A program made the translations under genes and the position numbers. From Candidatus Hydrogenedentota bacterium (GTDB taxonomy: Bacteria > Hydrogenedentota > Hydrogenedentia > Hydrogenedentales > JAJRTN01), in the NCBI GenBank assembly GCA_024278275.1, contig JAJRTN010000150.1, positions 1 to 64,000 of the forward strand: DNA of 64,000 nt, given 5' to 3'. Below, one piece after another: positions 18,722 through 25,300 of the stretch. Positions within the stretch are counted from its first letter, which is position 1. Each line of letters begins with the position of its first letter. The notes under the pieces were generated by a model, which saw nothing but the letters and a program-made list of their open reading frames with translations, was not told the DNA's origin and did no database searches.

Positions 18722-19687
18722 TTAAACCCCGGCGGGAAGGTTCGGTTCCATCTTGTCAGGCCCCAGGGCCTGAAAATAGTCCCGGATGGTTTCCACGTCC
18801 TGGTTGATGGCGCGAACGAGACTGTCAAGGTCCGCAAACTTCACTTCGGGCCGCAACCTCTTGTAAAAGATCAATTCCAGGGTTTCTCCTACGATATCAC
18901 CATCAAAATCAATCAGAAAGGCCTCTATGGTGATGTCTTCGTGTCGTATGGTGGGTGCAATACCGATGTTCACGGCCGCCATGTATCGGCGGCCGGTCAC
19001 GATGGCTTCGGCCGCATAGACCCCGTGGGCAGGTATGATATGAGGTCCGGGCCGGATGTTGGCCGTTGGAAATCCCAGTTTCCGGCCGATGCCGCGTCCC
19101 CGGGCAACCTCGCCCAGGATGGTATACCGGCGTCCGAGGTACTTCTCGGCCTGATCCAGCGCGCCCTGGAGTAGGGCTTCCCGGATAAGCGTGCTGCTGA
19201 TGCGTTCCCCCTGCATGATAAGGGGAGGGACTTCCTCCACCGTATATCCCAGCGCGGAAGCCCGTTTGGCGAGGTAGGCATGGTCTCCGCCGGCATTTTT
19301 CCCGAAAGCGAAGTCATGCCCAACGATCAGGTGCCGGGCACCACATCGCCGCAAGACGATATCTTCGAGGAACACCGAACGGTCCATGTCCGCCGTGGCG
19401 GCATTGAAGGGGAGCACGAAAAGGATGTCCACGCCCATGGCCTTCAGCAGTCGTTCCTTGAGTGTGTCGCCGGTAAGCAGGTTCGGCACGCCGTTCGGCG
19501 CGAAATACTGCCTTGGGTGGGGGCGCAGGGTCATGAGGGCGGCCGTGCCGTCCATACGTTTCGCGGCATCTTTCAGGTGGCGAACGATGCGTTGGTGTCC
19601 GAGATGGATACCGTCAAAGCTGCCGATAGTAAGGCAGAGATTGGACGTTTTACCATGGAAAGCGCGGACATCGTCAACAACGCGCAT
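18722..19687 (-). CDS. ribF: Bifunctional riboflavin kinase / FAD synthetase
   Basis: The protein has 321 residues. The N-terminal nucleotidyltransferase (FAD synthetase) domain has the motif GSFDGIHLGHQ (about 23-33). The C-terminal riboflavin kinase domain includes GRGIGRKLGFPTANI (about 197-211) and the DFDGDIVGE motif. It converts riboflavin to FMN and FMN to FAD in the cytosol. It lies 27 bases after truB and closes the rimP-nusA-infB operon, its position in many bacteria. No FMN riboswitch is seen next to it; as an internal operon gene it is probably co-transcribed. Confidence 0.95.
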   Translation of the reverse strand: MRVVDDVRAFHGKTSNLCLTIGSFDGIHLGHQRIVRHLKDAAKRMDGTAALMTLRPHPRQYFAPNGVPNLLTGDTLKERLLKAMGVDILFVLPFNAATADMDRSVFLEDIVLRRCGARHLIVGHDFAFGKNAGGDHAYLAKRASALGYTVEEVPPLIMQGERISSTLIREALLQGALDQAEKYLGRRYTILGEVARGRGIGRKLGFPTANIRPGPHIIPAHGVYAAEAIVTGRRYMAAVNIGIAPTIRHEDITIEAFLIDFDGDIVGETLELIFYKRLRPEVKFADLDSLVRAINQDVETIRDYFQALGPDKMEPNLPAGV

Positions 19688-19714: not shown

Positions 19715-20605
19715 TCATGCAAAAACACGTTTGGGATGGACGCGCGCTCCCACGGCCGTCGGCTGAACAAGCCCCAATGCCAGCAGGTCGCCCGCTTCGC
19801 TTTTGACCTGGACCCAGCCCTCGTTCACGGGACATCCTTCGAGTAAATCGGTGCTGGTCACGGTGTTCCCGGCCTTGAGCGTCTCCAGGGCTTGCGGAAG
19901 AAGGACCACGATGGGCAGGTCCAGGGCGTCGCCCATGCGAATCAGGCGGTCGCGGATCACTGCTTCGTCCGTGAAGGCGTCCACGGGCAACGCCGCGGTG
20001 ACCTCATGGCGTCCAACGGCCGTGCGTCGCAACCCGGCGAGCACGGCGCCACAACCCAGCTCTTGTCCGATGTCGTGACACAGGCTGCGCACGTAGGTGC
20101 CCCGGCCGCACCGGACACGCACCCGGGCGTCGGGCGCGGTGTACTCCACTACGTCAAAGGCATACACCCGAACCGGTCGGGGTTCGCGTTCCACGGTTTC
20201 GCCCTTTCGGGCCTTCTTGTAAAGCCGTTCCCCCCCCACCTTGACGGCGCTGACCATGGGCGGTACTTGCATGATTTCACCCACATAGGGCATGCACGCC
20301 GCCTGGATGCGCTCGGCGGTCATATCAGCGGGCACGGTATTCTCCTCAATGACCTCACCGTCGAGGTCGAAGGAATCCGTGACCACGCCCAAGCGCATGA
20401 TGCCTTCATAGGTCTTATCGAGGCCCGTCAAGTGTTCCGACAAGCGCGTGGCCTTGCCCAGGCAAACCAGGAGCAATCCGGTCGCGGCCGGATCGAGCGT
20501 TCCCGTGTGCCCCACACGGCGGATTCCCGCGGCCTTCCGAATGCGGTCAACCACGTCGTGGGAGGTCATTCCGGCAGGTTTGTCGACCAACAGCAGTCCC
20601 GTCAT
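19715..20605 (-). CDS. truB: tRNA pseudouridine(55) synthase TruB
   Basis: The protein has 296 residues. The catalytic motif GHTGTLDPAATGLL holds the nucleophile Asp38; the N-terminal GLLLVDKPAGMTSHDVV and the RCGRGTYVRSL motif are also TruB hallmarks. It isomerises U55 in the T loop of tRNAs. The ATG at 20605 overlaps the stop of the preceding rbfA-nrnA fusion gene (ATGA), confirming the start and tight coupling. The C-terminal region is compatible with a small PUA-like domain. Confidence 0.95.
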   Translation of the reverse strand: MTGLLLVDKPAGMTSHDVVDRIRKAAGIRRVGHTGTLDPAATGLLLVCLGKATRLSEHLTGLDKTYEGIMRLGVVTDSFDLDGEVIEENTVPADMTAERIQAACMPYVGEIMQVPPMVSAVKVGGERLYKKARKGETVEREPRPVRVYAFDVVEYTAPDARVRVRCGRGTYVRSLCHDIGQELGCGAVLAGLRRTAVGRHEVTAALPVDAFTDEAVIRDRLIRMGDALDLPIVVLLPQALETLKAGNTVTSTDLLEGCPVNEGWVQVKSEAGDLLALGLVQPTAVGARVHPKRVFA

Positions 20606-21936
20606 GGCGATTCCTTCATGGCCCTTTCCAAGCGGTCCAATACCGTTGGCATGGCCTCGGCCAGGGACATATCGAGGGTGACCCCCGCGGCGGCCGCATG
20701 GCCTCCGCCCCCGAATTGAGCGAGGAAGACGGCTGAATTGAACTCCGGAACGGAGCGGAAACTCGCTTTGGTTGTGTGAGCATCCACTTGGGTGAAAAGT
20801 ACGGCCACGCGGACGCCGTCCACGTTGCGCAGGTAGTTGATGAGCCCGCCGGTATCTTCCTTTTCCCCGCCCACGGCCGCCAGATCCTGGTAGGAAACAT
20901 AGGACGCGGCGATGGCTCCGTCGGCCCTGAATTCCGCCCGGGCAAGGACATGGCACAACATATCGAACTTGGGCCGGGACATGGCGCTAAAAACCGTTTC
21001 GCATATGGGCGCGGTTTCAAGGCCGGTTTCATGGAGTTTCGCGGCTATCCTGTGGGAACGGGCGGTCGTGTTGACGTACCGGTAGCCGCCGGTGTCGGTC
21101 ACTTGGGCCACGTAGGCGCAGTGGGCGGCCCCCATGGTGAGGGGTATGTCCGCCGTCTCGAACAGGTCCACCACGATCTCACCCACGGCGGCATAGGAGG
21201 AGTCGATGAAACCCGCCGTACCATCGGGATATTCCGCCAGGTGATGGTCCACCACGAAAACTTTCTGCCCCGGCTCAAGCCAGTCACGAACCGCGCCGAT
21301 TCGGGCGAGGGAGGCCACGTCGACGATGACCAGGGCCTGGAAACGAGGCCGTTCGGCTTCGCAGTTGATGATATCCTTCGCGCCGGGCAGACCACGGTAA
21401 ACGGCGGGCACGGGGTCATGCAAGGCACAGGTGACGGTTTTCCCCATGGCCCGCAGGAAGTGGGCCACCCCCAGCAGACCACCCACGGCATCGCCATCGG
21501 GACTGACATGAGAGGTCACCAGGAAGGACTCGGTTTTCCGCATATCTGCAACCAGGTCCGAAAGACCCAGGTGAAGCATGGGGGCTTCGTCCTGCTCGCG
21601 GTGAATCGTTTCAAGCACACTTTCCAGGTGGTACACCTTGTCGAGAGAATCGTCTTCAAAGAAACGGATCTCCGGCGTGACGCGCATTCGCAGGTGCTTG
21701 CCCACTTCACGCCGGACCCATCCTGCGGAGTTGCGCAGTCCGATAAGCGAGCTCTTCCGTTCCTTTTCTTCACCAAACAGGCTCACATGGATGTTCGCGT
21801 AGCGCAAGTCGGTAGACATGCGCACGGACATGACGGATACGAAACCGATCCTGGGATCCTTGAGCCCCCTGGTGATGAGGCGAGCGACTTCTTCGTGAAT
21901 CAGTGCGCCCACGCGGGCGGGACGGCCTGTCTGCAT
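20602..21936 (-). CDS. RbfA-NrnA fusion: ribosome-binding factor A joined to DHH/DHHA1 phosphoesterase
   Basis: One uninterrupted 444-residue frame contains two families. Residues 1-113 are RbfA, the 30S maturation factor (RVGALIHEEVARLI, DPRIGFVSVMSVRMSTDL, RVTPEIRFFEDDSLDK). Residues from about 120 to the end are an NrnA-type nano-RNase/pAp phosphatase, with DGD (147-149), VIVD (Asp206), the DHH triad (230-232) and the DHHA1 glycine motif GGGGH (409-413). In many genomes rbfA and nrnA are separate neighbours in this operon; here no stop or start separates them. The start at 21936 shares one base with the stop of ylxP. All metal-binding residues are present, so the enzyme part looks active. 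Confidence 0.9.
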   Translation of the reverse strand: MQTGRPARVGALIHEEVARLITRGLKDPRIGFVSVMSVRMSTDLRYANIHVSLFGEEKERKSSLIGLRNSAGWVRREVGKHLRMRVTPEIRFFEDDSLDKVYHLESVLETIHREQDEAPMLHLGLSDLVADMRKTESFLVTSHVSPDGDAVGGLLGVAHFLRAMGKTVTCALHDPVPAVYRGLPGAKDIINCEAERPRFQALVIVDVASLARIGAVRDWLEPGQKVFVVDHHLAEYPDGTAGFIDSSYAAVGEIVVDLFETADIPLTMGAAHCAYVAQVTDTGGYRYVNTTARSHRIAAKLHETGLETAPICETVFSAMSRPKFDMLCHVLARAEFRADGAIAASYVSYQDLAAVGGEKEDTGGLINYLRNVDGVRVAVLFTQVDAHTTKASFRSVPEFNSAVFLAQFGGGGHAAAAGVTLDMSLAEAMPTVLDRLERAMKESP

Positions 21937-22217
21937 TAGAACATCTCTATCCGATAGTCGGCGAGTTCGGCTCCCGGTCTGTTGGAAGCGAACCGGACAA
22001 TTTCGTTCAGTTGTGTGTTGGCGTGGGCGTGCTCGTTCGAGACGACGCACACGGTAAGACGGGCACGCTGCCACAGGTCCTGGTAGTCCGTTTCGGCCAC
22101 CGAACAATTGTAGCGGTTTCTGAGCTGTTGCTTCAGCCCTTTCACGACACGACGCTTCTCTTTAAGTGAGCGCGCCTCACGCGTGAGCAGGTCTATCTGC
22201 AAAACACCAATGGTCAA
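21936..22217 (-). CDS. DUF503 family protein (YlxP-like)
   Basis: This is a 93-residue protein of the DUF503/YlxP family (IGVLQIDLLTREARSLKEKR, then ETDYQDLWQRARLTVCVVS). YlxP sits between infB and rbfA in many bacteria, and its structure resembles an alpha/beta ferredoxin-like fold. Its exact role, probably linked to ribosome maturation, is not established. The first possible start is a TTG at 22217 with only a poor GGA-type site, so the start is uncertain. Its stop codon shares a base with the next ATG. The family match is strong from the SLKEKR motif and gene order. Confidence 0.85.
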   Translation of the reverse strand: MTIGVLQIDLLTREARSLKEKRRVVKGLKQQLRNRYNCSVAETDYQDLWQRARLTVCVVSNEHAHANTQLNEIVRFASNRPGAELADYRIEMF

Positions 22218-22345: not shown

Positions 22346-25300
22346 CTACAAGGTCTTGGGGACGAGTTCCACCTTGAAGGACTCGATGATGTCCCCCACC
22401 TGTATGTCATCAAAACGCTCCAGTTTCATGCCGCATTCAAAGCCCTGTGAAACGGAGCGCACGTCATCCTTTTCGCGCCGCAGCGTCCCAATACGGCCGG
22501 TGTGGATGATTTTGCCGTCCCGTATCAAACGGGCAAGCCCGCCGCGCACGGTTTCACCGTCCTGCTGCATGCAACCGGCGATGTTGCCAATGGCGGAGGA
22601 ACGGAAGACCTGCCGAATTTCGGCATGTCCCACGATAATTTCCTTGGACTCGGGCGTGAGCAGGCCCTCAACGGCCTTCTTCACCTCGTCAAGCAGTTCA
22701 TAAATAACAAGATAACTGCGAATGTCCACGCCTTCCTGTTCAGCGACGGCCTGCACCTTCGCGTCTGCGGTGACGTGGAAGCCAATGACGACGGCATCGC
22801 TGGTGCTGGCCAGCATGATGTCCGATTCATTCACGGCGCCCACCCCGGCGTGTACTACCTGGACACTGACTTCCTCATTACCGATCCGGGAAAGGCTTGA
22901 GGTCAGCACATCCACCGAGCCCTGTACATCCGCCTTGAGCACAATGGAGAGGGTTTTCTGCTCGATCCCTTCCATGCGCGCATGAAAGTCTTCCAGGGTC
23001 ATGCGTTTCCGGGCGGGACCGCGTTTTTGACGGTTCACATCGGCCCGCTTTTCCGCCACGCCGCGCACCATCCGCTCGTTTTCCGAAACAATGAATTGGT
23101 CGCCCGCCGTGGGGGGTTCACTGAAGCCGGTCACCAGGACGGGCGTGGAGGGACCGGCTTCACTGACCTGTCTGCCACGGGAATTGGTCATGGTGCGCAC
23201 GCGACCGTAGGTTTGCCCGGCAAGGAACATGTCCCCCACCTTCAGCGTGCCGCTTCGAACCATGACCCACGCGACGGGGCCTTGTCCGCGGGATATTTCG
23301 GATTCAACGATGGCGCCGCGGGCGGGCTTATTGGGGTTGGCCTTCAGCTCCAGCATCTGGGATTCCAGGATCAACATCTCCATCAGCTCATTGATGCCCT
23401 CCCCCGTTTGGCAGGAGATGTTCTTCATGATGGTCTTTCCCCCCCAACTCTCGTCCACCAACTCATACTGAACAAGTTCCTGACGCACCCGGTCGGGCTG
23501 GGCGTTGATCTTGTCGCACTTGTTGATGGCCACCACGATGGGAACTTCCGCGGCCCGCGCGTGGTTGATGGCTTCCACCGTCTGCGGCTTCACGCCATCG
23601 TCGGCGGCCACCACGAGTACCACCACGTCGGTAATACTCGCGCCACGGGCGCGCATCTGGGTAAAGGCCTCGTGTCCGGGAGTATCGAGAAAGACAACAC
23701 GCCCCTGTTCGAGTTCCACGTCGTAGGCCGCGATGTGCTGGGTGATGCCGCCGGCCTCACCGGCCGCGACACTTGCCTTGCGCACATAGTCGAGAAGAGA
23801 GGTCTTTCCGTGATCCACATGGCCCATGATGGTAACCACCGGCGGGCGAAGCACAAGACTCTCGGGGTCGTCCGGTTCCTCGGTGAACAATTCTTCCTCC
23901 TCGGGGATAACCGACCGCACCTCAAAACCGAACTGGGTCGCAACGGTTCGGATCACGTCAATCTCAAGCGATTGATTCTTGTTGGCCATGATATTCTCTT
24001 CCATGAGCGCGAGAATAACATCATTAATGTCCGCGTCCATGCTATCCGCCAACTGCTCGACCGTCATGGTTTCGTCCACTTCGAGCACACCACCGTGCTG
24101 TGCCACGGGCTGCCCCGATTCGTCCCGTCGTTTCCTGCGCCGTTTTTTCGGGACGGTTCCGGGCGCTCCACCGGCCTGATAGCTTTTCACCGCCGCCGCC
24201 GCGTCCCGGCGAAGGATCTCTTCCATGGCTCGGGCGCGCTCGGCGCGACGCTGCCGTTTCTTGGCCGTCTTTCCCGTTCCGCCGCGTTTTCCCCGACCGC
24301 TTCCCGCGGCCGGCTTGGGTCCCGAACGGAATTGCCGCTCCGCCCGTCCCTCTCGTGCGCTGCTTTCCTTTACCGGAAGTGGCGCGATGGGTTGGCGCAC
24401 ACGGGGACGTTTGCGTTCTTCTTTTTCGCGCTCCCGTTCCTGGGCCTTGCGAATTACCTCCGCCACCACGGAAGGATCGGGAACCGGCAAGGGGCGTTCA
24501 TTCCGCTTGCGCTCCTTTTCTTCCTGCATGCGCTCGGCATGGGCCAGGGCGCCCTCATCCGCATGTCCATCGACCGCCCGGTCCGCGGATGCTTCATCCT
24601 TCGTATCCGGGGCGGGCGGCAGGATTTCAGCCAGAACCGACCCGTTCGCCTCGGTTTGGGCGGAGGGTTGGGCTTCTTCCCCGGGAACGCTCTCCGGCGG
24701 GGCGGCACCTTCTTCGGCCGGGGCGGTATGCACCGGCGTTGCTTCAGCTTCACCGGTTTCGGGGGGTGCCTCGGCGGTGGCGGGTTCCTCGGCCGGGGTC
24801 ACCACCTCGGCCGGGGAGGCGACCACGGTTTCCACGGCGGGTTGATCAACTATCGTGGCTTCCGCCGGGGGATTCTCTGTTTCTATAATCTGTGGGGCCG
24901 GGGCTTCCACCTCTTCCGGGGCGGCATCTTTTGTCGCCTTCTTTTTGGCGGCGGCTTTTTTCTTCTCGGCGGCAGCCTTCTTCTTCTCGGCGGCGGCCTT
25001 TTTCTTGGCGGCGGCCTTGGCCTTGGCGGCGGCTTTTTTCGCGGCGGCCAAACGGCGTTTCTCATTTGCTTTCTGAAGACGCTCCGCCTTCTTGCGCTTC
25101 TCCTCCTCCTTTTTCTGGATTTCCTGGAGGAAGGTTTCGAGCGAAGAGGGATCCTCATCCACATCCATCAGGATGTCGCACTGATCGTCATTTATCTCCA
25201 CATCGACGCTACTCACCTCGAAGCGAAGCTTGCGCAATGTGTCGAGTGCCTCATCGGCACTCATATCGAGTCGCTCGGACAGACTTAAAATGGTCTGCAT
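22346..25300 (-). CDS. infB: Translation initiation factor IF-2
   Basis: The protein has 984 residues. The N-terminal IF2_N-type helix-rich domain ([20 protein letters not shown]) is followed by a very long low-complexity linker of Ala/Lys and then Pro/Glu/Ala runs (about 70-300), and a second IF2_N module near 410-450 ([20 protein letters not shown]). The GTPase domain begins near 490 with GHVDHGKTS, then DTPGHEAF and NKCD. Beta-barrel domains II-IV follow. IF-2 places fMet-tRNA in the P site. The length is in the upper range for the family because of the linker. Confidence 0.97.

Follow-up and report, generated by a model that had tools for sequence, protein, structure and literature searches.

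RbfA and an NrnA-type DHH/DHHA1 enzyme in one protein: a fusion of repeated origin in Candidatus Hydrogenedentota and other phyla

What does it mean that rbfA, a gene for a 30S maturation factor, and a gene for an NrnA-type DHH/DHHA1 enzyme are read as one protein in a Candidatus Hydrogenedentota genome? The locus lies in the window (the whole stretch of 64,000 nucleotides that was analysed), which belongs to a genome of 5.35 Mb in 200 contigs, 96% complete. A preliminary description of this DNA had reported a single frame of 444 codons in which RbfA is followed by an NrnA-type enzyme with DGD, Asp206, DHH and GGGGH motifs, and had added that rbfA and nrnA are neighbours in many bacteria. The open reading frame and its Pfam domains bear out the first of these claims, the motif residues are present and invariant in the fused homologues described below, and adjacent rbfA and nrnA genes were found to be widespread in other phyla. 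The fused gene (Table 1) is part of a conserved run, infB-DUF503-rbfA-nrnA-truB-ribF, which ends in the ribF-like gene in the relatives compared, and a search of the whole genome returned it as one match. Its three named relatives, with 41-59% identity, are all Candidatus Hydrogenedentota, and the one at 41% is a split locus.

Table 1. Coordinates of the fused gene, its parts and its neighbours in the window.
Feature	Position	Strand	Basis or remark
rbfA-nrnA fusion gene	20602..21936	minus	single open frame of 444 codons (21936 down to 20605) plus stop (20604-20602); Pfam RBFA, DHH and DHHA1
RbfA (KH-like) domain, residues 5-108	21613..21924	minus	Pfam RBFA (PF02033), E 3.7e-29, 101.6 bits against a cut-off of 34.7; sequence match to E. 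coli RbfA 7afl_V
NrnA-type DHH/DHHA1 enzyme domain, residues 125-444	20605..21564	minus	Pfam, motifs, fold match
Junction, about residues 117-124	21565..21588	minus	alignment of 33 fused homologues; AlphaFold2 model
DUF503 (YlxP-like) gene, directly upstream	21936..22217	minus	stop overlaps the fusion ATG by 1 nt (TAATG)
truB, directly downstream	19715..20605	minus	ATG overlaps the fusion stop by 4 nt (ATGA)
infB (IF-2)	22346..25300	minus	family search
ribF-like gene	18722..19687	minus	gene order kept across relatives; label presumed from position

The N-terminal part of the protein gives full-length matches to the RbfA family models, since in addition to PF02033 it is covered by TIGR00082 of NCBIfam (residues 4-113, 99 bits against a cut-off of 51.15). 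It resembles RbfA of the E. coli type (7afl) in having a full-length domain above the curated cut-offs, in its position in an infB-rbfA-truB operon and in being the sole copy, no second RbfA having been found in a search of the window's genome. It differs from it in that the C-terminal tail is replaced by the enzyme and in the KH-like AxG kink, where S70-A71-G72 (21721-21729, minus strand) aligns with A-S-G of E. coli. Among the 33 fused homologues the Gly of this kink is invariant and the Ala position is Ser in 31, while K26-R29, G31-S34, G72 and W73 are invariant in all of them.

The enzyme half spans about residues 125-442 and comprises Pfam DHH (residues 138-276, E 4.1e-11) followed by DHHA1 (residues 356-442, E 2.6e-11), both above the gathering score. 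Its motifs are intact (DGD 147-149, Asp206, DHH 230-232 and GGGGH 409-413), and D147, G148, D149, D206, D230, H231, H232, D281, R394 and G409-H413 are invariant in all 33 fused homologues. The nearest solved sequences to the fusion are the T. maritima TM1595 phosphodiesterase, M. tuberculosis Rv2837c and E. coli RbfA. AlphaFold2, run on an alignment built without rows from plasmid records, gave a model of the fusion with a mean pLDDT of 94.1 and a pTM of 0.77, in which the orientation of the domains is not trustworthy; a Foldseek search with the enzyme part returned TM1595 with a target TM-score of 0.94 and Rv2837c with 0.90. The DHH and GGGGH residues are shared with proteins of the NrnA/CnpB/TM1595 type (B. 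subtilis NrnA, 5j21; Rv2837c, 5cet; TM1595, 5o1u), and the fold is shared with TM1595 and Rv2837c, at an identity of about 28-30% in the structural alignments. The best NCBIfam equivalog model for NrnA (NF053633) reached 96.8 bits against a cut-off of 350, for which reason the enzyme half is called NrnA-type here rather than NrnA proper. A further difference from NrnA is the RbfA domain fused to its N-terminus: in recent work NrnA and NrnB are standalone DHH-DHHA1 proteins, and the substrates of characterised NrnA are RNAs of 2-4 nt (PMC12709177). B. subtilis NrnA is described as a 5'-3' exonuclease on RNAs of this length (PMC12709177, citing earlier work; also the title of PMC9757072).

How widely, and how often, the two genes have merged was investigated in 68 Candidatus Hydrogenedentota genomes, all of one order. 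One open frame runs across both domains in 33 of them, belonging to ten families (f1, f2, f3, f6-f11 and one f4 genome, G017). Split, neighbouring rbfA and nrnA genes are present in the f5 genomes with readable loci and in three f4 genomes, and some of the 68 genomes had no match or contig-end fragments alone. At nearly all split loci nrnA is in the +1 frame relative to rbfA and runs into, or starts near, the end of rbfA. When a tree was built from the RbfA and NrnA parts, 32 of the fused proteins grouped together as a clade (UFBoot/SH-aLRT 100/99) and that of G017 (locus L024) fell among the split f4 genomes (100/100). A tree of the neighbouring genes (IF-2, DUF503, TruB, RibF) agrees, with the 32 fused genomes together at 97 and L024 in the f4 group at 99; the order in which the split lineages diverge has low support. 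The fusion in the 32 genomes is one event, and L024 is a second, independent one. A single origin of all 33 fusions was rejected by the AU test (p = 0.000176), for which the group was defined by the fused trait, before the careful tree but after a quick one. The split state is read as ancestral because the outgroups are mostly split, the counts of changes alone giving no direction.

Outside the phylum about 380 genomes were covered, and the phyla of G098, G200 and G101 were each searched. Among the matches listed, open fused frames are present in G098 (locus L076), the sole genome sampled of its phylum, in G200 and G291, which represent one phylum in which both genomes sampled are fused, and in G101 (L078), which has three split relatives in the same family. 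The fusions at L024, L076 and L078 are each known from a single genome. In a wide tree the fusions of other phyla group neither with each other nor with those of Hydrogenedentota, the deep branches of this tree being poorly supported. With two events in Hydrogenedentota and three in other phyla, fusions arose at least five times, which is a lower bound taken from the matches listed. Adjacent rbfA/nrnA pairs (Monoglobus, Vescimonas, Tsukamurella, split Hydrogenedentota) share with the fusion both genes, their order and often an overlap, but they encode two proteins, nrnA lying in a different frame or after a stop.

Neither a description of an RbfA-NrnA fusion nor a published functional link between rbfA and nrnA was found in the open-licence PMC literature. 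We rate RbfA-NrnA as a domain architecture that is new but combines two known families; it stands out for its repeated origin and its retention. Because the fusion was repeated independently and kept without reversal through the whole clade, it suggests that a nanoRNA/dinucleotide hydrolase and 30S assembly are partners, physically or functionally; the merger in at least four lineages beyond the main clade likewise hints that the two jobs are linked, and the fusion offers a single protein in which such a partnership can be tested.

The reading we favour, and consider somewhat more likely than not, is that of a bifunctional 30S assembly factor with an active nanoRNA/pApA/pAp hydrolase, which RbfA would carry to pre-30S particles. 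In the ancestor of the large Hydrogenedentota clade, neighbouring genes whose ends overlapped or abutted came to be read in a single frame, and we infer a full-length product with both activities. Its N-terminal RbfA domain would serve ordinary 30S maturation, with a binding site on pre-30S close to helix 28 and to the ends of the 16S rRNA, and its C-terminal DHH/DHHA1 domain would hydrolyse 2-4 nt RNA, pApA or pAp, the enzyme being made one-to-one with RbfA and carried by it. The benefit of tethering may lie in the local clearing of RNA fragments, in a fixed stoichiometry, or in both; as possible purposes of tethering the preliminary description had named the clearing of leader or trimming fragments and the sensing of pAp or nanoRNA. 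Geometrically, tethering is compatible with what is seen of RbfA on the ribosome: of two cryo-EM placements, one has its C-terminus pointing to the 5' end of the 16S rRNA (PMC9032327; cf. PMC8201178). A C-terminal NrnA would then come near the 16S 5' region, where it could clear fragments but would be unlikely to trim long precursors. Since characterised NrnA acts on 2-4 nt RNAs, this half would fit a fragment scavenger more readily than an enzyme that trims. That many bacteria, the split Hydrogenedentota among them, do without the fusion means that tethering is no general requirement. A bolder version, in which the enzyme acts on the assembling small subunit near the 16S ends, removing rRNA oligonucleotides or reading pApA, pAp or nanoRNA, so that 30S release would be tied to the levels of RNA fragments or of a second messenger, appears improbable to us.

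Alternatively, the fusion may be neutral or matter at the level of expression only, an indel having joined two coupled genes whose halves work independently, so that the joint would provide equal amounts and nothing else. One indel suffices, since the ends of the split genes overlap or abut and nrnA is usually read in the +1 frame. The pair is commonly adjacent in other phyla too, and several phyla carry the two genes in frame with only stop codons between them. Such an origin, although it gives this alternative some weight, leaves it on the unlikely side when the junction and the history of the clade are considered. Residues 98-145 align gap-free in all 33 fused proteins with no indel at the junction, whereas the split RbfA tails beyond the last helix are 10 to 26 residues long, 42% of them acidic; of the fused residues 112-119, which align without gaps, 22% are acidic. 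The conservation of the linker among relatives, which the preliminary description had proposed to look for, is thereby established. The limits it had given for the joining segment (about residues 114-135) were adjusted to about 118-124, based on Met120 and on the AlphaFold2 model, in which a helix of residues 97-117 ends RbfA and the NrnA part follows closely behind. The branches of the fused clade add up to about 12.6 substitutions per site, and nowhere along them was a return to split genes seen, although stops lie one step away, with three to seven single-base changes to a stop in codons 108-119 of each fused gene. Moreover, the pairs IF-2/DUF503, DUF503/rbfA, nrnA/truB and truB/ribF share no frame in 57-60 Hydrogenedentota loci, and some of them overlap equally tightly yet stay unfused; this comparison is supportive and is not a statistical test, because rbfA-nrnA was the criterion by which the loci were picked and the phylum provides two events.

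The gene content of the window's genome raises a different possibility for the enzyme. One DHH protein was found there besides the fusion, and it reads as RecJ; no second NrnA was found in the genome search. Provided that the genome is sufficiently complete, no DHH enzyme other than the fusion would serve nanoRNA, pAp or pApA in it. A single diadenylate cyclase (PF02457) is encoded (G000:C84:18658-18993, L106), so that c-di-AMP is probably made. As the structures closest in fold are TM1595, which was solved with pApA, and Rv2837c, a c-di-AMP/pApA role becomes a candidate that was absent from the preliminary description: the fused enzyme would mainly be a c-di-AMP/pApA phosphodiesterase, and the fusion would tie second-messenger turnover, not RNA scraps, to 30S assembly. 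No DHH phosphodiesterase besides RecJ and the fusion was found in the genome, but the substrates of DHH/DHHA1 proteins cannot be safely assigned from sequence, and a search for Orn in this genome found none, which implies that a nanoRNase is needed as well. On balance a predominantly second-messenger role seems rather doubtful.

Even if the bifunctional reading holds, the gene might yield two products, the full-length RbfA-NrnA and a free NrnA initiated at Met120 (21577-21579, minus strand), which occupies the position of the old NrnA start codon. Judged by eye, a conserved hydrophobic position follows Met120 at a distance of five residues, as it follows many start methionines of split NrnA. 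The codon of Met120 is ATG in 28 of the 33 fused genes; in the other five it is CTA, CTG or TTT (Leu or Phe). Pairing with the anti-Shine-Dalgarno sequence upstream of Met120 does not clearly exceed that of synonymous shuffles (mean z -0.32, p 0.06) or that at other internal ATGs (p 0.19), and no clear Shine-Dalgarno signal was found at Met120, a weak test because the fusion's own start scores no better and is itself without a strong one. We regard a second product as unlikely. The faintest of the alternatives, a false join of two genes through a frameshift in sequencing or assembly, has in its favour the relatives with separate genes in another frame, but its chance is negligible and it is ruled out for the clade by 33 separate genomes of ten families with a shared frame and a conserved, indel-free junction. 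The preliminary description had named separate genes in relatives together with a frameshift at the junction as evidence against the fusion; such relatives do exist, in other lineages, but in the clade there is no frameshift, and the fusion of the neighbouring genes is kept in 33 genomes of the phylum.

Some loci depart from both the fused and the ordinary split arrangement. Within Hydrogenedentota, the frame is irregular at a small number of split loci, through in-frame stops or a break in nrnA; among them are L061 (G032) and L063 (G063), with a stop inside the nrnA match, and L064 (G064), with the frame broken in two, and they may be assembly errors. In other phyla, rbfA and nrnA share a frame and are kept apart by just one or two stop codons at L079 (G235), L080 (G088), L081 (G187) and L082 (G180), and same-frame, stop-separated genes are also present in G384, G375, G448, G451, G320, G369 and G364. 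At these loci readthrough or single-base changes would yield a fusion; at L079 the stop TAG is directly followed by an in-frame TTG.
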